A stretch of DNA of 64,000 nucleotides from Chrysopilus asiliformis. Its lineage: Eukaryota; Arthropoda; Insecta; Diptera; Rhagionidae. The notes under the pieces were generated by a model. That model ran no database searches and was not told where the DNA came from. It saw only the letters and a list, made by a program, of their open reading frames with translations. Below, one piece after another: positions 1,226 to 62,333 of the stretch; within the stretch, counting starts at the first letter, position 1; each line of letters begins with the position of its first letter. The DNA lies in contig OZ035963.1 of NCBI GenBank assembly GCA_964034945.1, positions 33,759,644 through 33,823,643 of the forward strand. Direction: 5' to 3'. The position numbers were made by a program, and so were the translations under genes.

Positions 1226-4088
1226 TTATTTAATAGTACACAAGCCAAGTGGCTTAATGCACTTGATATGCTTGGGTGCTGATAATCCTTTCGTGAGGAC
1301 ATCAGCTGGCATTTCGTCTGTCGGGATATACTTCACTATAATTTCTTCTTTCTGTATAGCTTCCTTTATGAAGTGATGACGGATGTCTACGTGCTTCGTA
1401 CGGTTATGGAACACAGGATTCTTGCATAGTTGTCCAGCACCTTGGTTATCATTGAAGATTGTCGTTGCTTCCTGCTGACCTAAGATTTCGGACAAGAAAC
1501 GTTTAAGGTGTATCCTTAGATCCTTAGACGTTTCTAAGGTGAAAGAGCCATATATTCGGCCTCTGTGCTTGACATTGCGACTGTTCTTTGCTTTCGAGAC
1601 TCCCAACTTATGGCTGTATTTGCAAAAATAAATACGTACCCCGTATATGATCTTCTGTCATCGATATTTCTGCATCTGCAAATCCTGTAAGCTTCCCTTC
1701 AGACTTTTTAAACACCAAACCTAGATTCTGGCTGCCTTTCAGATACCGAAGTACTCTTTTAGCTACTATCCAGTGTTCCTTACCAAAGTTTGAGTTGAAT
1801 TGACTAAGTACGCTCACTGCATGTGAGATGTCAGGTCGCGTAGATACTGCTAGATACATCAAACATCCGATAAGGTTCTGGTATGGTAGTTTCTCAGCTT
1901 CTTTTCGTTCATCCTCGGTCTTCGGGCACATGTCCTTGGACAATTTCTCATTCGGGTTTATGGGAGTTGTGACTGCCTTACAATCTTCCATGTTGAATCT
2001 GCTCAAAATAGATTTAATATAATTAGATTGTGACATTGTAATATCATGTTTTTCAATATTTTGCTTGAATTCGATTCCGAGGCACAGATTTAGTTTACCC
2101 AAATCTTTCATTTCGAAAAATGTTGACAATTCCGCCTTCAATTGACACAATTTGTTTATATTATTCGAAGCTACCACTGCCTGCCGGACTGCTTCAGTCC
2201 ATATAGCGCCTTTTTTAGTAAACAAACTTTATCTCCTGTAAATTTATTGTATTCGGATCTGTTCGAAATTGCTTTGATTTCTTTGGGAAGTTCCATGTAT
2301 ATTTCTTCTTCGATATCACCGTTCAAGTAAGCACTGATGAAATCTAACTGATGTACTTCAAGTTCTAATTGAACAGCAATTGCCATTAGCATTCGAATAG
2401 ATCCAATTCTAGCCACAGATGAGAAGGTTTCATTGAAATCGATTCCCGGTTTTTGAGTGAAACCTTTCGCCACTAATCTGGCTTTTCGACGATCAATTTC
2501 TCCATTGGCTTTAAATTTCGTGCGCAATACGCATTTAGAACCGATGACTTTCTTCCCTTTAGGGCGCTCAGTAATAACCCAAGTACCATTCCTCTTTAAG
2601 GCTTCGTATTCTTTCTTGATGGCTTCTTTCCACTCATCAGCTTCGGGGTTAGACAGAGCTTCCTCAGTTGTTTGTGGATCACTGCATTCGATTAAGCTGG
2701 CCACATCAAAAAATTCTTCGTCTTCATCAGTTGATGAATTTTCGGAGTTCTCTCCTTCTGGAACTGGTATCATATTAAATAATTTACCTGGTCTACCTGG
2801 CTTTCCAGTCAATATCTTCTTTGGTCGTCCAGGTCCTCGCTTCGAACTGGTCGAGGTCTCATTTCCGGTCTCGTTCACTTCAGATTCATTCGTGGATATA
2901 TTTTCTGTTGGAATTTCTTCATGTTGTGCTTCTTCTTCCTGTTCGGCAGAAACATCCTGTCTATCTTTGATTAAACTATTCGGTTCCTCCTCTGGAACTT
3001 CATTACAGGTGAATTCAACGAATTCTTGCACTGGTTGATAAGACTCAGTGAAGACAACATCTCGACTTCGAAGAATTTTTCTTGATTCGGGGTCCCAAAG
3101 TCTGTACGATTTAGAATGCATTGAATATCCAATAAAAATGCATTTTTTCGATTTGGGTTCAAACTTTCCTTTTCCTGGGGTTTTGTCGAGCATGAATGCC
3201 GTTGTTCCAAACTTTCGAAAATAACTGACAACTGGAGTCCTATTTGTCTACAACTTGAATGGTGTTTCACCACAAATAGTTCTTGAAGGACATTTGTTTC
3301 GGATATGATTCGCTGTGAGTAGAGCTTCGGCCCAAAAACCGGCAGATAATCCAGACTGGATCATCATGCGCCGTGCCATTTCCACTAATGTTCGGTTTTT
3401 CCGTTCGGCTACGCCATTTTGTTGCGGCGTATATTCGACAGTAAATTCGTGCTTGATTACTTCTTGTTTCAGAAAATTTTCGAAATAATGACTTTTATAT
3501 TCTGTTCCGTTGTCTGTTCACAGTGTCTTGATTTTCTTGTCAGTTTTCTGCTCGACAACTGCTTTATACTCCTTGAACTTTTCAGCAACTTCGGACTTCT
3601 TCTTTATAAAATACACCTCGCACCATCTTGACTTATCGCCAAAAAAAAGTAACGAAGTATCGCGAACCTCCAATAGAATTTACGCGCATGGGGCCGCAAA
3701 CATCGCTGGGAACAATCTCTAACACTTCTGTGGATCGAGAACCTGACGGCTTCTGTGACTGCTTCCCTTTGACACATATTTCACACACTGGAAGATTACC
3801 TTCGTCTTTGATATCGATTCTACTCACCTTCTTATGACGGCTGATATTCTTAAGGTCCTGTTCGTTTAGATGACCAAAACGTTCATGCCATTCTTGTAGT
3901 AATGATTTGCCTACTTGCGTTACTCTACTTTCTTCTGAGAATTCGTCAACGCAATAAAGATCCCTTTTTCGATGAGCAACCATTAAAACATCTTCGGATT
4001 CTGGACGTCTGACGATAGCTTCAGTTTTTCGGAAGATTACTTCGAGGTCATGCTCAGCAATTTTTGCTACAGACAGGAGATTGGACCT
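1226..4088 (-). pseudogene. copia pol remnant (integrase, RT, RNase H)
   Basis: Minus-strand pieces in copia order. At 3983-3633 the GAG-pre-integrase zinc-binding region (HERFGHL, then CEIC) leads into the first integrase core Asp in SDVCGPM. At about 3600-3290 other frames show the second Asp (TDNGTEY) and the Glu region (QQNGVAERKNRTL), with a stop just before TDNG. At 3193-2171 come the integrase C-terminal part and the RVT_2 reverse transcriptase, with RKARLVAKGFTQ and the catalytic-Asp segment HQLDFISAYLNG. At 2225-1608 the connection region and at 1606-1226 the RNase H end (DNQGAGQL, KHVDIRHHF). The segment that should hold the YVDD active site is absent: the LYGLKQSG region runs out of frame straight into VVASNN. 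A further frameshift lies near 1607. Confidence 0.95.
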
Positions 4089-4864
4089 TAAATCAGGAAC
4101 GTACCATGTCCCTTCAAGTTTCGCAGTAATACTTTCTTTAGTTTGCCAATGCCACTTCCTTCGATTGTTGTAGATTTTGTGTTCGCCAAATTTAAAATTT
4201 TTGCTTTCGAAGATCCAATTTCTACAAATTTTGCTTTATCTGAACACATATCCGAGGATGCACCGGAATCTAGACACCACTGTTCGCGTTCGGTGTTGAT
4301 TGTCATTGCAACTTCTGACTGTTGGCTGGATTCAACGTTCTTTTGCTCCTGAGATTTTGATTGATTTTTGTTAAAATACTTCGATTTACATTCCTTATGT
4401 CCAAATTTACCACAATTGTGACAAGAAAATTTAAAGTTTTCGCTTCTTGTATGATCGCTTTTCGGTTTTTGATTCCATTTATTAAAATTCTTCTTCACAA
4501 ACATTGCCCCTGGGATACTTTCCTTCACATTTCTTCTACGTGCCTCAAATTCCTCCAAAAGTTTGATTTTCAGAGATTCGGGATCTGGAAGTTTCTCTTG
4601 AGTTTCGATTGCGATTCGAAATGATTCGTATTCCTCTGGAATACTATACAGCAAAAGTACTGTCAGTAAGTCGGCCATGATTTCCAGTCCCATTTCATTA
4701 ATTTTATCTACAACGTCGAAAAATTTTCGAATATGGTCCCTCATGTCATCAGCACCACATTGCATCTTCAAAAGAATCTGCGTCTTCAACAGCATGGCCT
4801 TACGCGCTGGTCCTTTTGATTGATACACACTATGGAGTTTATCCCAAATTTCCATGGACGTCAC
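4088..4864 (-). pseudogene. copia gag-protease fragment
   Basis: This open stretch encodes the C-terminal part of copia Gag and the protease. A CCHC-type zinc knuckle sits around residue 147 (CHNCGKFGH), but the last spacing is H-x2-C instead of the usual H-x4-C, so two residues seem lost. The aspartic protease motif DSGAS follows around residue 198. The N-terminal part of gag lies on the far side of the inserted hAT element, at 6103-6286. The frame ends at 4088, before the integrase part at 3983. Function is lost in this copy through interruption and frameshifts. Confidence 0.93.
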
Positions 4865-4892
4865 ACAATTCTTAATTTGTCTTAACTCAGAC

Positions 4893-6095
4893 CAGTGTTG
4901 TGCCGCGTAGTCTACGTGGTGTAGACTACACCATTGTCTACGCGTAGACTATTACTGTAGACAATGGTCTATTCTCTACGCGTAGACAATGTAGACAATC
5001 AATAAAATAAAGGATAGCTGATTTAGTTTTAAAATCTTATTTTCTTCAATCAATTTTAACATAATAAAGCACAATTTCCAGGAAGCAATCGCCAAATGCT
5101 GTAATGGAGAACTTCAGAGCAAACTTTAGTGGCAATTCTAATTCTTTTCATGCAATCTAAGCGGCTTTTGTTTAATTTTTGCAATTGAAATCACATTGAA
5201 TTCTAAAATCTTTTTGCTTTACACATTTTTCTATATAACGAACCGTTTATTTAAAAAACTGATTCATTTGTATGGGATGGCTTTGCTCATTTAAGAATAT
5301 CTGTTTAATTTTTTCGAAAAACACAAGTCTTTAGCTTAATTCCGTTGAGAGTCATCGTATTTACAGATAGACGGAAATCTATACGGAAGTCATTCAAATC
5401 AAATAAAGTAAATCAAATACCCCTAATATAAAAAATATTAAAAAAAAACCTACCAAAACTAATTCAAGAATTAATTTTTTGCGCTTATATGTATTGTTTC
5501 AAAGGTCAGACCTTTCAAAGGGCAGTCGATTTCGGCTTTGAGAATATATGACTCACTGATGACTTTGTTTTGACAGATATGAGAAAGTCTACATTGTCTA
5601 CGCAAAGTCAACATTGTCTACGCCAAAGTCGACATTGTCTACGCCAAATCTATTGTCTACGCTATTGTCACAAATAATATACAGATGACCGGAGCTCAAA
5701 GAACCTCATGATACAATTTTTAACGATCAGCCGACAGAAGATCAGCCGACAAAAGCTTTTGACTTAAATTTTGAGCGAGAGTGGAGAGATAGTTTCTCGT
5801 CAAATCGTATGCCGAACACACACAAGTGAATGTAATAAATGTGTTGAATTTTTTGTATGATTGGCGCGGCGGTGGGGTTGTATAAAACAAGTTTACAAAA
5901 GCTTGAAGTCATCTCAAACGAACCGAAGACAAAGTTCTCTCCCAGAGGAAAAAGTTTTTCGGCTTTTAAAAGCTCGCTTGATTTGGTTTCATATAACATG
6001 GTTTTCTTTGAGCTCTGGTCATCTGTATATTATTTGTGCTATTGTCTACACTGAAGTGTAGACAATTAAAGTCTACGCGTAGAGGAACAACACTG
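4893..6095. mobile_element. Non-autonomous hAT element inserted in copia gag
   Basis: The ends are CAGTGTTGTGCC and its inverse, agreeing with the hAT terminal consensus CAGNGNTG, and the element is flanked by a perfect 8-bp duplication ACTCAGAC (4885-4892 and 6096-6103), the hAT hallmark. Both subterminal regions are crowded with a direct and inverted motif TTGTCTACGC / GTCTACGCGTAGAC (about 4908-5000, 5585-5665 and 6045-6085), as expected for hAT transposase binding sites. No transposase frame is recognisable in the 1,203 bp. A second TIR element is inserted near the right end (5670-6037). Confidence 0.95.
5670..6037. mobile_element. 368-bp MITE inside the hAT element
   Basis: Terminal inverted repeats of about 36 bp begin ACAAATAATATACAGATGAC and are flanked by a perfect 9-bp duplication GCTATTGTC (5661-5669 and 6038-6046). 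A 9-bp duplication suggests the Mutator-like group, but other superfamilies make 8- to 9-bp duplications, so the assignment is tentative. The short open frames inside are overlapping shadows on both strands with no domain. Confidence 0.92.
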
Positions 6096-12521: not shown

Positions 12522-13000
12522 TTATACCCGTATGGTGAAACCAAAGGGTATATTAGATTTTCCTTACCGTTTGTAACGCCAAGATCCCGTCATCACACAA
12601 AAAAATGAATTACACCAGTGTGTTTAGAATGATGAAAATATTTAATTTTTGCATGTCCGTCCGTCTGTCTGTCTGTCTGTCTGTCCGTCTGTCCGTCTGT
12701 CCGTCTGTCCGTCTGTCCGTCTGTCCGTCTGTCCGTCTGTCCGTCTGTCCGTCTGTCCGTCCGTCTGTCCGTCTGTCCGTCCGTCTGTCTGTGGCGCGGA
12801 TTGCGGGCGCACGGATTGAACTAGAGATTTGAAATTTTGAGCAGATCCGTTTTTCGGTAAATGCGAGGCTAAGTTCGTTCATGGACAAAAATGAACCATT
12901 AGAGGGGGTACCCCCCATACGAACGAAAACGTTTTTTGTGAATATCTGCTTCTTATCAAAAAAGTGCAAAAACAAAAGTTATTTAGGATATTTTCCTGGC
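12522..13000 (+). mobile_element. DINE-1/INE-1-like (Helentron-type) repeat copy
   Basis: Starts with 'tttatacccgtatggtga' and 'aaagggtatattagatttt', then 'catcacacaaaaaaatgaa', then a GTCTGTCC microsatellite (12657-12795), then a conserved block with 'gcgaggctaagttcgt' and 'ggtacccccc'. The same order appears in reverse at 39425-39935 and in part at 51460-51790. The organisation (box near the end, GTCTGTCCG repeat core) is that of Drosophila DINE-1/INE-1. The long frames across it are microsatellite translations, not genes. Confidence 0.75.
12657..12795. repeat. (GTCTGTCC)n microsatellite
   Basis: About 140 bp of GTCT/GTCC tetramers forming the core of the DINE-like repeat. Both strands stay open because the period-8 unit has no stop. 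Confidence 0.95.
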
Positions 13001-28783: not shown

Positions 28784-28946
28784 TAAAGCAAAAATTTACT
28801 GGAGATCTTGCGAGTGCCTTTTGCCTGGTATTGCAATAATTTTACGATTCGACGAAGTTCGTTTTTATGTGTTAAGCGCGGTTTACACGAAGAGAGTTAC
28901 TGGAATCGAGTAGTGTGAATGTACACACACTAGTGTGAATGTAGCT

Positions 28947-29440
28947 GATCACGAATCCGGTATTAGATTTTCAAAATTCGAAACGGAAGGTCCTGTAAGG
29001 ATAATGAAAATATCCTTTTTCCCGTTTTTCCCCGGGAAAATTTGCGTTATAGGGTTTTTGGGGTCGCTGATCACGAATCCGGTATTATATTTTCAAAATT
29101 CGAAACGGAAGGTCCTGTAAGGATAACGTAAATGTCCTTTTTCCAATTTTTCTTGAAACAATTGACACTAAGGGGTTTTCGAGGTCGCTGATCGCGAATC
29201 CGGTGTTCGATTTTTCAAATGCTAAACGGGAGGTCCTGTAATGATAACGAAAATGTCCTTTTCAAATTTTTCTCGCAAAAAAAAAACAGGCTTTGGGAGG
29301 TTTTCAGGGTTGCTTATCACGAATCTTGAGTTGGAATTTCAAAATTCGAAACGAAAGTTATTTATAGTTTTTTGGCATTCTAAAATTTACGCAAAAAAAC
29401 TTTTAGCTGCCAACGAAGGGTCTGCTAATATATATAAATT
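28947..29440 (+). repeat. 120-bp tandem repeat family, four-unit copy
   Basis: Four units, each about 118-120 bp, with 'gctgatcacgaatccggt', 'ttcgaaacggaaggtcctg', 'taaggataacg' and 'ccccgggaaaa'; the last ends in 'cttttagctgccaacgaagg'. The same family lies inverted at 52320-52790. Confidence 0.9.
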
Positions 29441-30613: not shown

Positions 30614-31760
30614 GCATTTTTTACTTTCTTCTACGGAGTATAATAAAGTATTGTATTCATGAAAAATTTCGACCTCTTAATTTTGCCTAAAAAACATTTC
30701 CCGATCACTCCTGAGTCGATTAGAGTCATATTTAAAAAATGTCTTTCTGTCTGTCAGTCTGTCTGTCAGTCTGTCAGTCTGTCAGTCTGTCAGTCTGTCA
30801 GTCTGTCAGTCTGTCAGTCTGTCAGTCTGTCAGTCTGTCAGTCTGTCAGTCTGTCAGTCTGTCAGTCTGTCAGTCTGTCAGTCTGTCAGTCTGTCAGTCT
30901 GTCAGTCTGTCAGTCTGTCAGTCTGTCAGTCTGTCAGTCTGTCAGTCTGTCAGTCTGTCAGTCTGTCAGTCTGTCAGTCTGTCAGTCTGTCAGTCTGTCA
31001 GTCTGTCAGTCTGTCAGTCTGTCAGTCTGTGTACAAGATTTCTCAAAAACTAATAGAGCTAGCGCCATGAAATTTTATAGGCATGTTGGGTCCTGAAATG
31101 GGACGATCCTATCAACTTTTGGTGGAAATCCGTTAACCGGAAGTATCCAAAATGGCGGTTTTTCAAAAATCGCAATTTCGTTTTTCTCGATTTACTCCCA
31201 AACTACGCGTTTTTTAGTGGCCTTAAGTATGACAAAACTTGGAGAAAATAAAATTTCCCACACTTTTGTCTTTAACTATAACTCGATATCTCCACCTGTT
31301 ATCGAGATAAACCGTTATTTCCAAAAAAACAGTTTTTTGCGATTATCTCGAAAACTAACGGGTTTTTTCTGACTGAATGTATGAAGTGAATTAATGGGAA
31401 CGGCATTCTGCACAATTTTGTTTCTTACAGTTATCCGTTATCTTTTACCGTTATTGAGATATTTTCATTAATATGTAAAAAATCATATTTTTGCGAATAA
31501 TTTGCAAACTAACGGTTTGTCGACAAATCAGTTAAAAGAATAATTAAAGATGTTCACATTTTCTACATTTTTGCCATTTACCGTAAATTGATATCTTTTA
31601 CAGTTCTCAAGTTATCTCAATTTTTGTACGTTTTTGATATTTTTGAATAAACCAAGAATTTATTGGGAGGTCGTCTTAGGTTGACAACGCGATAGGGCTC
31701 TAGCGTAAATTGCGCAGGGTCGTAGATTTTGTAGAAGAAAGTTTTGTGTTGACCACAACT
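30614..31760 (+). repeat. Dispersed repeat with (CTGTCAGT)n core, copy 1
   Basis: Starts 'ttttactttcttctacggag', carries the microsatellite, then about 730 bp of conserved AT-rich sequence ending 'gttgaccacaactg'. Copy 2 at 61373-62333 is nearly identical outside the microsatellite. The two 100-145-codon frames across it are microsatellite translations. Confidence 0.93.
30737..31030. repeat. (CTGTCAGT)n microsatellite, long allele
   Basis: About 290 bp of an almost perfect 8-bp unit; the homologous tract at 61498-61600 is only about 100 bp. Confidence 0.97.
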
Positions 31761-42035: not shown

Positions 42036-42543
42036 CAGGAAAATTAGGCGAAAAAAAGCATGAACCTCTTAAAAAATCCTAGTTAACTGGATTTTTGCAC
42101 AGACCTTTATTTTGACATAACAAACAACGTCCCAAAAGTCCATTCCAGAATTGCGCCGGCGTCGTGAGTTATTCAAGGTCAAAGGTCCCAAAAATCAGTT
42201 TTTTACGTTTATCTCACTTTATACGGGTTGCACGTCTTTTTGAGATTCAGATGAATTAATCACAATGAAATTCTCTACAAAAAAGGTTAAATAAGGTTTT
42301 TTTGTAGGGCCAATAGAATTTTATTGTGATTAATTCATCTGAACCTCAAAAAGACGTACAACCCGTACAAAGTAAGATAAACGCAAAAAACTGATTTTTT
42401 GGACATTTGACCTTGAATAACTCACGACGCCGGCGCAATTCTGGAATGGACTTTTGGGACGTTGCTTGTTATGTCAAAATAAAGGTCTGTGCAAAAATCC
42501 AGTTAACTAGGATTTTTTAAGAGGTTAAATCCTAATTTTCCTG
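42036..42543. mobile_element. 508-bp palindromic MITE
   Basis: Arms of about 235 bp (42036-42270 and 42310-42543) are inverted copies with few differences; they begin CAGGAAAATTAGG and include 'attgcgccggcgtcgtgagt' and 'ttcatctgaacctcaaaaa'. The flanks show no clear duplication. Confidence 0.9.
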
Positions 42544-42735
42544 GATTAAATGGCGATCGTGAAGATATCTGTGGCCTCAAACAATAACCTCTTAATCCTT
42601 TCGAGATGACTTCTTGTTTAAATATTTGAAAACTAGTTTTGGGTTTTACGTTAAAAGTGTCGTCAAGAAAGACTCTGTAATTGAAAAATAATTATGACCT
42701 TGGGATTTGGACATGGGGTCCTGGGACTATTTGTT

Positions 42736-45339
42736 CACGGAAAGAATTATTTTCTAAAAACCAAGAAAATTGCTATATAAATCGAGAACATGGGGAATAG
42801 TTCTCGTCCAAGTGAACATTTTCTTGATTTAAAACAATGAGAAACGATTGTAGAAACTCTTGAATTTTGAAAGTTTTAGAATATATTTTCTAAATGTAAG
42901 AAAAAACGGATTAAATTCTGAAAATAATGGTTGAAAAACAATTCTAGAAATCAGATATTATTTCTACATTCCATCATAAATTTCTTATTAAATCTTTGTG
43001 ACCAAGTAAAAATTGATTATTTTGAGAAATGACGGAATAGTATTTTCTGATATATCTAGAAATGGGTTCTTAACACATTCGTTTCTAGAACAAAATCGAT
43101 CAATTATTGCCCGATATTAGAAGTTACCGCTCAGTATTTTCTAGTTGCCTAGAAATTTATTCTTATCATATTCCTTTCAAGAATAAAGTTAGAAAATTAC
43201 TGTTTTAGGTGAAGCGAAATCCATCAAAAATTTCTTGATGTTAGAGCAAACCGTTCAGTATTTTCTACTTGTGCAGAAATAAATTCTTAATACATTCCTT
43301 TCTAGAGCAAAGTTAGAAATTTGTTTTTAAAATTCTAGTAAAAATGATCAAATATTTCTTGATTTTAGAAAATATCTTCTAGTCAGCCAGCAATAAGTTC
43401 TTACAATATTCCTTTGTGGACTCCATAACCCCGCGACTAAAAATTTAGTTGCAAATTCAAAGCGCTGTCGGCCCTTATATTGCAAATATTAGGATACAAG
43501 AATAAAAACAGAAAAATGTATGAAATTTTTTCTTCAATAATATTTTTATTTTTTATTGAATTTTATGACAAATAAGTTACAAAAACTTCTTAATTTTTTA
43601 ACAATTAAATATTTACGGTGTATATACTGTTTGTTCCAACTAGTAGTATATATGGTTGGCATGACAGATCACAAAAACTGGCGTACTTTGCTTTTCTAGC
43701 TTCGATGGCGTCTTTGAGATCCAATTCGGAATCAACTTGAAGTATTAGACCACGTTGTGAGTCGGCTATACTGAGTTTCCAGATTTTTTTGGGATCATCT
43801 TTCCGTTTTACTTGCCCAGTCGGTGTTAAAAAGAAATGGAGACATTGGCATATGGTAAAGTGACAATCATTGACATCTGAAACAAAGAAATGGAATTATC
43901 AGCTAAATAACATTATAATTAAGGCTTTCAATTAATATTACAATAGAAAGGATAATTGTACTTGGATTATATTACGGAAAGTTACGGTATTTTTTTAAAA
44001 AAATATGTTTACCTTTAAATTCGCGTGAAAGAAGGAGTTTCGTTTGATCTTTTTCTGATCCAATTCTTAAAAATTGAGGTACAATTTTTTTCCATCCTTC
44101 AAGAAGCCCGCAGCCGTTTGAAAAGAGGGCATCGAAGCCAATATCTATGTAAATTGAAATAATTGTTACTTTTTTACTTAGATGGAAAATAATGGCTTAC
44201 CAATCGTGCTCCGGACGAATGCCTCAATGCTGGCCATTCGTCTACCAGTTTTTTTTATATTATTAGTTTTTTTTGAACTGGTGGGAACGTAATTTGCTCA
44301 TAGGTTTCCACTGCAGTTCTACACAATCCCATGGTTCGCAATAGTGCTTTAGCCAAATTTTGCCTTGCTGAATCTCTTCACCTTTGTCAATAAATAATAT
44401 TGGTATTCATATTGGTATTGATCCTCCATTCCCCATTCCTTTAACACAGCAAAAAGTTTTTCGTCAACTGGATTATATTGCTGCTCCATGCTAAAAAACT
44501 TTTTCGACTTACTCACCGAACTAACGCACGCTGCCGCGGATTACGAACAACTGAGAACTAACTCCGTGTGTTTTTTGAATTTCATTTTCGTATGTCTCGC
44601 ATTTTTTCGAGTCGGGTGACACGAGACTTCGAGAATTTGAAGATTTGAAAGAACGATCCCAGAAAACATTACTAGATCGATCTTAAAGTTCTGAATTCAA
44701 TCAAATAGTTCCAAATCAGATAGAAAATGCAGTCTTGAAGTAAGAATTAGTTTTCTCGAATCGTTCTCAAAATGATATTTTCAGAGTAGAAAATCTTCTG
44801 ATAGTACATACAAAAATGTTCTCAAATTAAGAAAGAAAGATTTTTATTTTCTAGCTCTAGAATATTCCCCTTAATTCAAGCATTCTGAAATCACATAGGG
44901 CGCCAAACTTAGTTTTACAAACCGAATGAAAACATTTTGCTTTAGAAAATATTTTCTTATTTTAATTCTTGAGTTCTGAATACAAAAAAGTAATGATCCC
45001 ACAAAAATAGTCAATGAAGTCTGAAAAAATAAATCATTTTCTTTAACTCGAGAAAATATTTTCTTATTTTTATCGCTATTTAATTAAATTGCGTATTTCG
45101 TGGATTTACTTTCTTAGATCTAGATTTACTTTCTTAGATCTAGAAAACTTTGTTGATCACTAAAAGATTGATTTAAGAATTGCTTAATTTCTTGAAATCA
45201 GATTTTTTTTTCTCATAATGAGAAAGTGGTACTTGAAACAATATAAAAGTTCTCATTTTAAGTTGATTTTTCTCAAAATTCGATTTTCTCGAATCAAGAA
45301 AACCTGTTTCTAAAAAATAGAAAATTATTATTTTCCGTG
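42736..45339 (-). mobile_element. TIR-bounded 2.6-kb unit carrying a gene of a multicopy insect family
   Basis: The left end CACGGAAAGAATTATTTTCTA is mirrored at the right end (..ATTATTATTTTCCGTG), giving an imperfect ~21-bp TIR that begins CAC; TT lies outside both ends. About 700 bp on each side is filled with degenerate motifs of the form TTTCTTGATT, TTTCTAGAAAT and AGTATTTTCTA in both orientations, as expected for a dense array of subterminal binding sites. The centre (43605-44489) holds a decayed three-exon minus-strand gene. The CAC end and 2-bp duplication would fit CMC (CACTA-like) elements, but no transposase is present and this is inference. Confidence 0.65.
43605..44489 (-). pseudogene. 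Decayed three-exon gene of a multicopy insect family (SAM-like N-terminus)
   Basis: The minus strand starts at 44489 with MEQQYNPVDEKLFAVLKEWG, like the sterile-alpha-motif starts of a multicopy uncharacterised insect family. Exon 1 is broken by at least one frameshift between about 44400 and 44290, then ends in RRMASIEAFVRSTI with donor ATTG|GTAAGC (44201). Exon 2 (44144-44013) encodes GFDALFSNGCGLLEGWKKIV and ends at G|GTAAAC. Exon 3 (43876-43605) follows TTTCAG, shows ILQVDSELDLKDAIEARKAK and, near its end, CQPYILLVG, then stops. The 'Q-P-[FY]-I-L-x-V-G' end and the preceding 'DL..AI' segment match what I know of that family. Splice sites and phases agree across the two later exons. Function unknown. 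Confidence 0.65.
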
Positions 45340-46860
45340 TTCCATTAGTACTTTTGTGTTAATACATAATTAAGCCAATAGATGTTGTGGTATGAAAAAC
45401 TAACAAATTTAATTCATTGAAAAATTATAAATTCATTATACATAGAAATACAGAAAGACGCCAAAAGAATTTTTCACACATCGTCTGGTTTATTTGCATA
45501 CCAGCAGTTGCGAAAGCGTTAAGTCGATTTTAATGTGAAGCTAAACTATGCCTTTTACAGATTCAGCTCACATTGAAAATAGACTGAAATCGACTTAGAC
45601 TGAAATCGACTTAATTTAATAAATAAATAATTTAGAATAGTTTTTTTGTTTTTTGAAAAAATGTTTTATTCATTATAGATTTAGCAACCCTTTTGCAACC
45701 CTCGATTAATCAAAGTGCCCATAGTGCGACGCTCAAATAAGATTTTGTTGTTGTATTTTTTTAGAAGCACGGCAAACTTTATCGCAAATTTGTATGAGGA
45801 TATATATGACTAAGCCAAAATAACAATGTTACATTTATTGCATTCACAATTATAATGAGATTTCAACAACTTTCCTGCCAATCTTTTTTAATACATCAAC
45901 TTTATTCCTGTTATGTAGAAAAGCACAAACAGCATATTTCTCACTATTAAATTCCATACTGTATTACAAAGAGATATGTACGTACTTCTAAATGTAGTGA
46001 GTATACAAAGAACATTTTATCTTGGCGAAATTATCTTAAATGTTTTGCGGTTCTACGCATTTGACCTAAAATCTTTAAGGAGAATCTTTTCTCAGACCTT
46101 ACAGTACATATTTTCTTTAAGGTGAACCGAGACAAGTTTATGCGACAAAGGAAGTCAAGCGAACAGTATCTGGAATGGTACAATGATAAGGACTACGATG
46201 TTTTTCATTCTCTCAACATCAGTACAGATATGCTGTCTAGTGCCGCTTCTATCTTATTGTAAAAGAAAACAAAGACATATGAATCTCTAATGGAGGATAA
46301 AGAATCCTTTTGATGACAATTCATACGATTTTTATCACACGTAGATAATGAGAATGGGGATAAGAGTTAAGTTGTATTGTACGACTATACTAGTCCCTTA
46401 TTATGTCTTGCCGAGTCATTCAATCTGTTTGTCAGTCCCTATCTATCTGTCTTTTATGTCACTAATGTCACAACTATGTATTCTCATAATTCACCGATTG
46501 AATAAGTCTACACTCAAATAAGTGCTTAGTTCTTTTTTTTAGTAGCTGCTTAAAAAAGTACGTAAATTGATATTTTTTTATAATAAATTGATATGTTTGC
46601 ATCTATCTATTGATTGTTAAAAATCAAAACTGAAGTCACATGCACCATACAATAAATATAGGTACCCGAAATGGTTGTTAATACTAAGATTTCTATTTAA
46701 TAAAATATTTAAAAAAAAGTAGAACCGACTTGAGAAAAGGTGCTGTCAAATTTAAGAGCACCATAAAAATTGAAATTACGCTAAAATCAATCGTAATGAG
46801 TATTTTTTTTTGTTTTTTTTTTTTACTCCAAATGATATATCATAAGATTTAGTAGACCGT
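45340..46860. other. Intergenic, no gene seen
   Basis: A small inverted pair (45518-45615, 'gttaagtcgattttaatgtg') is the only structure noted. No supported frame. Confidence 0.5.
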
Positions 46861-52314: not shown

Positions 52315-52790
52315 CTACGTTGGCAGCTAAAAGTTTTTTGTATAAATTTTAGAATGCCAAAAAACCATAAATAACTTAAAAAGTTTTGGGAAAAAATGTT
52401 ATCCTTGCAGGACCTTCCGTTTCGAATTTTGAAATTCCAACACCAGATTCGTGATCAGCGACCCCAAGACCCCATAATGGCAATTTTTCAGGGGGAAAAT
52501 GGGAAAAATGATATTTTCGTTATCCTTATAGGACCTTCCGTTTCTAATTTTCAAATTCCAACACCGGATTCGTGATCAGCGACCCCAAAAACCCTCTTAT
52601 GCCGATTTTTCCGGGGAAAAACGGGAAAAAGGATATTTATCCTTACAGAACCTTTCGTGTCGAATTTTGAAAATCTATTATCGGATTCGTGTTAAGCGAT
52701 CTCAAACATAATGCCAATTTTCCCGGGGAAACATGGGAAAAAGGATATTTGCGTTATCCTTACAGGACCTTCTTTCAGATCCAATATTGT
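52315..52790 (-). repeat. 120-bp tandem repeat family, inverted four-unit copy
   Basis: Inverted relative to 28947-29440, starting with 'accctacgttggcagctaa' and followed by four diverged units with 'aggaccttccgtttc' and 'gattcgtgatcagcgac'. Confidence 0.9.
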
Positions 52791-60234: not shown

Positions 60235-61190
60235 TAAAGGGTGGTTAAATTTCAAGGGCCGATGTTGAATGTGAACCACACCTAAACGTCAAGTTTTTTC
60301 TGCATTTCATTTGACATTTCTCAATTTCAGACTAACTCAATTTGAACCATGGAAAGATACACAATCGAGCAACGCGTTAAAGTTATTCAGGCTTATTATG
60401 AAAATGGGCGTTCAAATCAAAATGCATATCGTGCACTTCGTGAAATACGGCCCGATGATGCCGCCAGCCCATAAACCGCACCAAACAGTCACTCTTTGTG
60501 GGTGCATTGGTTTTTCGACAATCACTCTTGGATTATCATTCGCCCAAATGCGGCTGTTCTGCTTATTGACGAATCCACTGAGGTGAAAATGTGCCTCATC
60601 ACTGAAGATGATTTTCTTCGAAAATTGATCATCCACTGTTGCCATTTCTTGCCACCATTCTGACCATTGACGACGCTTGAAATGGTCAAGAGGCTTTAGT
60701 TCTTGAGTCAATTGCACCTTGTAAGCGTGTAAATGCAAGTCTTTATGCATAATGTTCATCAACGACGAGCGTGGGAGGTGCAATTGTTGGGCACGACGAC
60801 GAGTTGAGGTGGACGGCTCTTCAGCCACACTATCGCGAACAGCAGCAATATTTTCTGCAGTACGAGCTGTACGAGCATGCACTGGTGTTTTCACATCTCC
60901 TACAGACCCGGTTTGCTCAAATTTTTGCACGATTTTTCCGATTGTACGCACATTTGGACGATTAAATTGACCGAAAAAATCACGAAGTGCACGATATGCA
61001 TTTTGATTTGAACGCCCATTTTCATAATAAGCCTGAATAACTTTAACGCGTTGCTCGATTGTGTATCTTTCCATGGTTCAAATTGAGTTAGTCTGAAATT
61101 GAGAAATGTCAAATGAAATGCAGAAAAAAACTTGACGTTTAGGTGTGGTTCACATTCAACATCGGCCCTTGAAATTTAACCACCCTTTAC
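60235..61190 (-). mobile_element. Tc1/mariner element with 209-bp inverted ends
   Basis: The left arm (60235-60443) and right arm (60980-61189) are inverted copies that differ by one base in a T-run. Each arm starts TAAAGGGTGGTTAAATTTCA and includes the start codon and first ~30 codons of the transposase. TA lies just outside each end (one extra C on the right), fitting a TA target duplication. The single transposase frame runs from the right arm leftwards and ends in antisense arm sequence. Confidence 0.92.
60412..61074 (-). pseudogene. Tc1/mariner transposase, N-terminal two thirds
   Basis: A 220-residue frame starts MERYTIEQRVKVIQAYYENG (paired-like helix-turn-helix, residues ~1-60), continues through a second HTH (TSTRRRAQQLHLPRSSLMNI, ~95-115) and the start of the catalytic domain, KIIFSDEAHFHLSGF, which holds the first Asp of the DD(E/D) triad, then RIWANDNPRVI and VTVWCGLWAGGIIGPYF. 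The second Asp and the third acidic residue, normally ~90-125 residues further, are missing because the sequence after GPYF is the inverted 5' end. The last residues come from antisense arm. Family members are usually ~340 residues. It could bind ends but not cut. The frame itself has no stop or frameshift. Confidence 0.9.
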
Positions 61191-61372: not shown

Positions 61373-62333
61373 GCTTTTTACTTTCTTCTACGGAGTATAA
61401 TAAAGTATTGTATTCATGAAAAATTTCGACCTCTTAATTTTGCCTAAAAAACATTTCCCGATCACTCCTGAGTCGATTGGAGTCATATTAAAAAAATGTC
61501 TTTCTGTCTGTCAGTCTGTCTGTCAGTCTGTCAGTCTGTCAGTCTGTCAGTCTGTCAGTCTGTCAGTCTGTCAGTCTGTCAGTCTGTCTGTCAGTCTGTG
61601 TACAAGATTCCTCAAAAACTAATAGAGCTAGCGCCATGAAATTTTATAGGCATGTTGGGTCCTGAAATGGGACGATCCTATCAACTTTTGGTGGAAATCC
61701 GTTAACCGGAAGTATCCAAAATGGCGGTTTTTCAAAAATCGCAATTTCGTTTTTCTCGATTTACTCCCAAACTACGCGTTTTTTAGTGGCCTTAAGTATG
61801 ACAAAACTTGGAGAAAATAAAATTTCCCACACTTTTGTCTTTAGCTATAACTCGATATATCAACCTTTTATCGAGATAAACCGTTATTTCCAAAAAAAAA
61901 ACAGTTTTTTGCGATTATCTCGAAAACTAACGGGTTTTTGCTGACTGAATGTATGAAGTGAATTAATGAGAATGGCATTCTGCACAATTTTGTTTCTTAC
62001 CGTTATCCGTTATCTTTTACCGTTATTGAGATATTTAGATTAAAATATAAAAAAAAATATTTTTGCAAATTACTTGCAAACTAACGGTTTTTCGACAAAT
62101 TAATTTAAGGAAGAATTGGAGATGTTAAAATTTTTTACATTTTTGCCATATACCGTAAATTGATATCTTTTACCGTTCTCAAGTTATCTCAAATTTTGTA
62201 TGTTTTTGATATTTTTGAATAAACCAAGAATTTATTGGGAGGTCGTCTTAGGTTGACAACGCGACAGGGCTCTAGCGTAAATTGCGCAGGGTCGTAGATT
62301 TTGTAGAAGAAAGTTTTGTGTTGACCACAACTG
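61373..62333 (+). repeat. Dispersed repeat with (CTGTCAGT)n core, copy 2
   Basis: Nearly identical to 30614-31760 except for a shorter microsatellite (61498-61600). It sits inside a coding exon; ATATT occurs at both junctions (61368-61372 and 62334-62338) and may be a 5-bp target duplication, although copy 1 also shows 'atattttt' after its right end. Confidence 0.93.
61498..61600. repeat. (CTGTCAGT)n microsatellite, short allele
   Basis: About 100 bp of the same 8-bp unit as 30737-31030, with one irregular CTGTCTGT near the right end. Confidence 0.95.

Follow-up and report, generated by a model that had tools for sequence, protein, structure and literature searches.

A non-autonomous CMC/CACTA-like element of Chrysopilus asiliformis and the DUF4769/SAM family as candidate second gene of insect CACTA-type transposons

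CACTA-type elements and a unit of Chrysopilus asiliformis

Plant CACTA transposons depend on two proteins of their own, TNPA, which binds the subterminal repeats, and the transposase TNPD; deletion derivatives are served in trans by both, and the repeat words diverge in step with the proteins that bind them (PMC2613891). A TNPA-like protein was proposed for animals by the authors of SmTRC1 in 2006, and that paper reports that no relatives of the Schistosoma second protein were found in other elements (PMC1636069). The elements of the CMC (CACTA/EnSpm-Mirage-Chapaev) group are cut-and-paste DNA transposons. In transposases of the wider CMC/CMCT group, C(2)C and H(3-4)H motifs lie between the second D and the E of the DDE triad (PMC12730594). 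Here we describe a 2604-bp unit in 64,000 nucleotides of the Chrysopilus asiliformis genome (contig OZ035963.1; the whole stretch is called the window), together with the gene family to which it leads. The unit is a small, recently mobile transposable element with terminal inverted repeats (TIRs), and we consider it likely that it is a non-autonomous CMC element moved in trans by the proteins of two-gene elements.

By itself, the window unit is an ordinary non-autonomous TIR element, and what is new, as far as we have seen, is the gene pairing that it reveals. No link between CACTA-type or CMC-EnSpm elements and SAM or DUF4769 proteins was found in the literature searched, which left Repbase and subscription journals outside its scope.

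Four copies with exact ends and a broken gene

Used as a DNA query against the complete 429-Mb genome, positions 42736-45339 returned six pieces that make up four copies, on C4 (the window copy), C2, C1 and C3. The outer limits fall at query bases 1 and 2604 in all four, separate searches with the left and the right end give the same four places, and the termini CACGGAAA...TTTCCGTG are exact in every copy while the surrounding flanks differ. The left and right TIRs can be aligned with one gap, and with hyphens marking the element boundaries, three copies read TA-CACGG...CCGTG-TA and the window copy reads TT-CACGG...CCGTG-TT. Both the inverted 5′-CA(C)...(G)TG-3′ termini and the 2-5 bp target site duplication (TSD) that characterise the CMC/CMCT group are found here, the former in 4/4 copies and the latter with a length of 2 bp. 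When the sequences on either side of the C2 copy were joined across one TA, all 118 bases of the resulting query were matched exactly at 40 of 40 scored places (the best 40 of 868 candidates), and because this empty site is exact, the insertion of the C2 copy duplicated exactly two bases, TA. The CAC-type TIRs that the initial annotation placed at the bounds of the unit are therefore the exact ends of four copies, and the short duplications of 2-4 bp that it anticipated appear as 2-bp repeats around each copy, TA in three and TT in one.

Another reading, the first half of which that annotation had allowed for, is that the ends arose by chance within the AT-rich repeats and that the gene is an isolated pseudogene. 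The region is AT-rich (31% GC) and ends of the CACGGAAA type are common, with TACACGGAAA over-represented genome-wide (2209 occurrences versus 806 for the reversed control), but four copies in unlike surroundings share the same end bases and one of them has an exact empty site, so that chance ends are ruled out and their probability is close to nil. We are highly confident that the window unit is a non-autonomous element of the CMC type.

Divergence among the copies, with gaps uncounted, ranges from 0.23% (C4-C2, 6/2603) to 1.69% (C2-C3), and later insertions of 566 bp and 6164 bp split the copies on C1 and C3, respectively. The first insertion (in L003) has the ends GGTTCAACCACAATTGAGGC and ...CATTGTGGTTGACC and is an element like a miniature inverted-repeat transposable element, and the second (in L040) contains a 1429-amino-acid open reading frame (ORF) on the minus strand that resembles a retrotransposon polyprotein. 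The C2 copy (L002) sits in a high-copy palindromic repeat, whose identity over 118 bases at the 40 scored places (of 868 candidates) is a sign of a very recent burst.

No transposase gene is present in the window unit. The gene that the unit carries is a genuine, though broken, family member. The minus-strand ORF at 43608-43895 matches a family profile built without the window sequence (E 3.3e-11, database size set to 5000) over positions 271-344 of 422, and the C1 and C3 copies match to positions 343 and 354, while C2 is identical to the window there. The last ~70-80 profile positions, or ~75 residues, are missing in 4/4 copies, and both C4 and C2 have lost 32 bp of exon 1 that C1 and C3 retain. 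By parsimony, the unit probably continued to move in trans, its gene being unable to yield the complete protein. The initial annotation described a decayed three-exon gene with a SAM-like start and the end QPYILLVG; the decay stands, while the exon count gives way to four exon-like pieces (Table 1). A Pfam scan of the window gene gave one chance-level match and no direct match to PF15992, and its place in the DUF4769/SAM family follows from the family profile match, the family in turn being linked to PF15992 through relatives.

Two-gene relatives and the pairing of their genes

Searching the genome at the protein level with the window gene uncovered relatives that lie next to long ORFs of 814-831 amino acids. 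In L036/L076, the family gene is spread over several exons and the long open frame lies 200 bp further on. Each of the three two-gene units readable at both ends has the arrangement TA-CAC...GTG-TA, and ten more loci have TA-CACGCAGAG or TA-CACTCAGAG ends, the flanks having been read for a minority of family clusters. Longer units that also encode a DDE transposase, as envisaged in the initial annotation, do exist, and combine the family gene with a transposase that has the CMC motifs. The 21-bp TIR of the window unit is not shared by these relatives, but the CAC..GTG class of ends, the TA duplications and the possession of their own arrays are. The existence of two-gene CMC units supports the earlier idea that the family owes its copy number to a DNA transposon, perhaps a CMC one, which has it as cargo or as its second gene.

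The transposase (~820 amino acids) is of the CMC/CACTA type, with DDE and C2C/H3-4H motifs and, in structural models of the two-gene relatives, a predicted RAG1/Transib-like fold. In an alignment of 46 proteins (44 of 120 listed homologues, from 315 found, and two loci), residues D306, C418, C421, H624 and E644 are present in all 46 and D398 and H620 in 45, which is the motif arrangement of the CMC/CMCT group. Among Pfam profiles, Transposase_21 (tnp2) matches 2/46 at E <= 0.01 (best 0.0064), Plavaka matches 3/46 and DUF4218 matches 4/46, and the two transposases with listed Pfam scores lie below the curated cut-off.

The second-gene family corresponds to Pfam DUF4769 (PF15992) behind a SAM domain. 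PF15992, a domain of unknown function whose 256-position profile stops before the C-terminal domain of the second protein, matches that protein in P0118 and in the units at C2:110.25M and C5:7.94M. In Lucilia cuprina, a gene model reads from the transposase into the DUF4769/SAM gene. A PDB sequence search with P0001 gave no match, and a Foldseek search of the second protein against the PDB and viral models gave none at E <= 0.001, only the SAM part being recognisable. The second protein may resemble vertebrate SAMD3-like proteins, and nothing relevant to SAMD3 and transposons was present in the literature searched. In Drosophila suzukii, a SETMAR-like mariner gene model (P0009) opens with ~45 second-protein residues that have 91% identity to P0001; this model is a case of nested transposon genes annotated as one gene.

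How regularly the two genes occur together was counted from genome-wide tables, in which rows within 6 kb on one strand were merged into clusters and clusters within 8 kb were taken as pairs. All 54 listed transposase rows (54 of 115 candidates scored) form 44 clusters, and the 99 family rows kept form 86; another 49 of the 148 family rows, short high-copy fragments of the L036 family covering only query residues 5-67, were left out. With the first query, a family cluster lies near 26/44 transposase clusters, where ~0.15 would be expected for random places, and a transposase lies near 26/86 family clusters. The strand is the same in 26/26 pairs, with the family gene upstream in 22 and downstream in 4. 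An independent query, the Calliphora vicina protein P0002, pairs with 20/44 transposase clusters, again all on the same strand, and the two queries united give 29/44. The family search scored 150 of 206 candidates and the P0002 search 82 of 157, so that these counts are lower bounds. Some family clusters without a transposase are TIR units, as the window unit and L078 show.

It could be argued that the family gene is a host gene captured by CMC-type elements as passenger cargo, in the manner of Pack-type elements, and has no role in transposition. In keeping with this, no transposase was detected within 8 kb of 60 of the 86 family clusters, and the gene was broken in the copies of the window unit that moved, although either view predicts a broken gene in a non-autonomous copy. 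Against it, the family gene accompanies those 29 transposase clusters always on the same strand, and its transposase partners, once the L036/L038 family is set aside, are only ~29-39% identical to the query and come in two gene orders, a recurrence that a single capture would not produce; the Lucilia cuprina model also has both genes in one reading unit. Because the pairing recurs in this way, we favor a second gene and consider cargo quite unlikely. Given the recurrent same-strand pairing, the CAC...GTG ends and the fused Lucilia cuprina model, the DUF4769/SAM family is very likely the second gene of CMC/CACTA-like elements.

The search for longer elements with the TIR of the window unit found none: the TIR pattern matches the four copies and one further site (C1:25664697), which follows a TA but lacks both an array and, within 1.5 kb, an inverted partner. 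Among the ~100 of 2209 TACACGGAAA places listed, four inverted pairs (L079-L086), ~1.0-1.7 kb apart, have TA-CACGGAAAA ends and other subterminal sequence, which suggests a wider group of CACGG-ended units. Also among the places listed, TACACGGAAA sites on C1 occur in outward-facing pairs ~290 bp apart (e.g., 2779138/2779430, 7768630/7768941 and 13469736/13470024), suggesting another short repeat with the word inside its ends.

With no transposase of its own, the window unit might instead stem from another TA-target lineage, such as an ESTA-like or Mirage-like one, and have only the second gene in common with EnSpm-like elements. However, the 2-bp TA duplication and the subterminal arrays recur in the two-gene elements of this genome, whose CAC..GTG ends are also alike (CACTGAAA in L072/L078 versus CACGGAAA in the window unit). 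ESTA and Mirage also belong to the same wider CMCT group, so placement at the CMC level would stand. We give such an origin a modest share of the probability.

Table 1. Features of the window unit and of related units (hyphens in the remarks mark element boundaries)
Feature	Window position	Strand	Remarks
Non-autonomous CMC/CACTA-like element, 2604 bp	42736..45339	.	Four copies sharing exact ends, TSDs, C2 empty site
Left TIR CACGGAAAGAATTATTTTCTA	42736..42756	+	
Right TIR CACGGAAAATAATAATTTTCTA (minus-strand reading)	45318..45339	-	
Left 2-bp TSD	42734..42735	+	TT in window copy, TA in other three
Right 2-bp TSD	45340..45341	+	TT in window copy, TA in other three
Left subterminal array, core TATTTTCT, also TTTCTAGAAA	42757..43440 (bounds approximate)	.	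k-mer tests
Right subterminal array, core TATTTTCT	44640..45317 (bounds approximate)	.	k-mer tests
SAM-like first-exon remnant	44410..44489 (other bound approximate)	-	Start codon 44489; 32 bp shorter than C1/C3
Exon-like piece KKLVDEWPALRHSSGARL	44201..44254	-	Followed by GTAAGC donor-like site
Exon-like piece DIGFDALFSNGCGLL...LLLSREFK (DIGFDALF piece)	44013..44144	-	Splice-like sites on both sides
Last exon-like piece ...CQPYILLVGTNSIYTVNI, then stop (end QPYILLVG)	43605..43876	-	Without C-terminal ~75 residues of family; profile match E 3.3e-11
L036 + L076, ~7.5-kb unit			Begins TA-CACTCAGAG, ends CTCTGCGTG-TA
L077, ~7-kb unit			TA-CACTGAGAG...CTCTGAGTG-TA; family gene and long ORF pair
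L038			TA-CACGCAGAG at both ends; family gene and transposase remnant
L072/L073			End TA-CACTGAAAG, in two different flanks
L078, 2.8-kb deletion derivative of L072/L073 family			Ends TA-CACTGAAAA and TA-CACTGAAAG; about a dozen places

Several other features lie in the window. A 464-bp foldback (42063-42526, 91.5% self-complementary) stops ~210 bp left of the unit and looks like a separate inverted-repeat element. Judged by eye, broken copia-like retrotransposon ORFs occupy 1226-4948 (minus), and an ORF at 60412-61077 (minus) is a candidate Tc1/mariner-like transposase. An 8-bp TCTGTCNG-type unit forms three arrays, at 12655-12789, 30746-31030 and 61503-61596, with 17, 36 and 12 copies, and the first two yield long spurious ORFs. 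A ~121-bp tandem unit forms two separate arrays (28944-29282 and 52398-52772) that are apparently mutual reverse complements. An Rfam scan of the window at gathering scores gave no match.

Subterminal arrays, proposed mechanism and known systems

The window unit has TTTCT/AGAAA 23 times in the left array and 22 times in the right, compared with 6.5 and 10.3 in dinucleotide shuffles, none of 500 reaching either count, while the counts in the unit's gene and flanks are ordinary. The longer motif TTTCTWGA occurs 7 times on the left (0.32 expected, maximum 3 in 500 shuffles) and 3 times on the right (0.59 expected, shuffle maximum 4), the latter not being convincing. Of the two ~700-bp arrays in the initial annotation, both are therefore enriched in the short word, and only the left one in the exact motif. 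In a motif-free test, the most surprising 8-mer of the window arrays is TATTTTCT/AGAAAATA, with 10 occurrences versus 0.51 expected and 0/200 shuffles as extreme; the interior control is ordinary (99/200 at k=7, 147/200 at k=8). The same test finds a different word in each related family, namely AAATAGTT in L036 (8 versus 0.36 expected), AATTTAAA in L077 (13 versus 2.05, 0/200 at k=8) and TTGATGAA in L078 (15 versus 0.64). In L078, TTGATGA points one way on the left (6/8) and the opposite way on the right (12/13).

These parts suggest a mechanism. The window unit would keep its TIRs and two subterminal arrays as cis-sites, carry a broken copy of the CMC second gene (SAM domain, DUF4769 and C-terminal domain), and be moved in trans by the proteins of intact two-gene elements. 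The DDE transposase, with its predicted RAG1/Transib fold, would cut at CAC..GTG and insert with a 2-bp, mostly TA, duplication, while the SAM/DUF4769 protein would bind the family-specific subterminal repeats, most likely as the animal counterpart of TNPA. Domains of the SAM class frequently mediate self-association, and SAM-SAM contacts may gather the element ends. We infer the movement in trans, the DNA binding, the oligomerisation and the need of the second protein for transposition. The second protein is taken as TNPA-like because the matching parts are there: CAC..GTG ends, a transposase of the right class, family-specific word arrays and a fast-diverging second gene with a SAM domain. 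By this analogy, a role as end-binding factor is nearly as probable as not. The fuller proposal is more tentative: DUF4769/SAM proteins may be to animals what TNPA is to plants, second-gene products of insect CMC elements that bind the ends, form polymers, diverge fast and change together with the words, and elements with only the orphan gene, such as the window unit, may live on, and perhaps restrain, intact pairs.

Several results weigh against this account. In addition to the 60 family clusters without a transposase, 15/44 transposase clusters have no second gene, and with partnerless clusters on both sides, the pair is not obligatory at present sensitivity. The clusters are not independent events either, since several are copies of one family, and the independent lineages are therefore fewer than the cluster count. 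A transposase with CACGGAAA ends, i.e., the mover of the window unit, was not found in the TIR-pattern search or among the ~100 of 2209 TACACGGAAA places listed, the interiors of L079-L086 being unread. For the protein, 8/12 PF15992 matches lie elsewhere and are weak, the SAM match is structural (Foldseek E 1.4, probability 1.0), Pfam SAM_2 scores E 0.02, below its cut-off, and the middle and C-terminal domains have no recognisable fold, which is no proof of a new one; the window gene is ~23-35% alike to its relatives. For the arrays, the flank control of the motif-free test gives 9/200 at k=7, and 0/200 at k=8 from 3 copies of one word versus 0.02, and L077 is weak at k=7 (2/200). The bare count of the commonest 7-mer exceeds all 300 shuffles only in L078 (21, maximum 14); it stays within them in the window (17; 95% 15, maximum 22), L036 (13, maximum 18) and L077 (18, maximum 32).

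An insect protein family of unknown function gains a name and a testable job, and if the account is true, much of an annotated uncharacterised insect gene family consists of transposon genes. Counts of DUF4769 in gene-family studies may then be transposon counts; in the literature searched, the one paper that names DUF4769, on a ladybird, has it in a table of selection and gene-family change (PMC8805230). The family is also a candidate for the second protein that was proposed for animal CACTA-type elements in 2006 but was not found conserved (PMC1636069). With several element families in one genome, subterminal words can be matched to their candidate binding proteins.

Among known systems, Transib/RAG transposons are alike in transposase fold and in the C2C/H3-4H motifs. 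Their duplications are 5 bp, compared with 2 bp in the insect elements here, and ProtoRAG also has a second gene. SmTRC1 and the TRC group, CACTA-type elements of animals, likewise duplicate 2 bp and have been proposed to encode a second, TNPA-like product; the ends given for a mosquito TRC element begin with CCC, whereas those here begin with CAC, and the authors found no relatives of the Schistosoma second protein in other elements, whereas the second protein here is a conserved family in flies (PMC1636069). The plant CACTA/EnSpm elements (En/Spm, Tam1, Tgmt*; TNPD with TNPA/TNP1) likewise have CAC..GTG ends, a CMC-group DDE transposase, an element-encoded second protein, family-specific subterminal repeats and non-autonomous copies moved in trans (PMC2613891). 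They duplicate 3 bp, in contrast to 2 bp, mostly TA, in the insect elements, and the second protein of the insect elements is a SAM/DUF4769 protein. Finally, while the two products of plant CACTA elements arise by alternative splicing, the two genes of the insect elements, judged from DNA alone, appear to be separate units, of which one consists of a single open frame.
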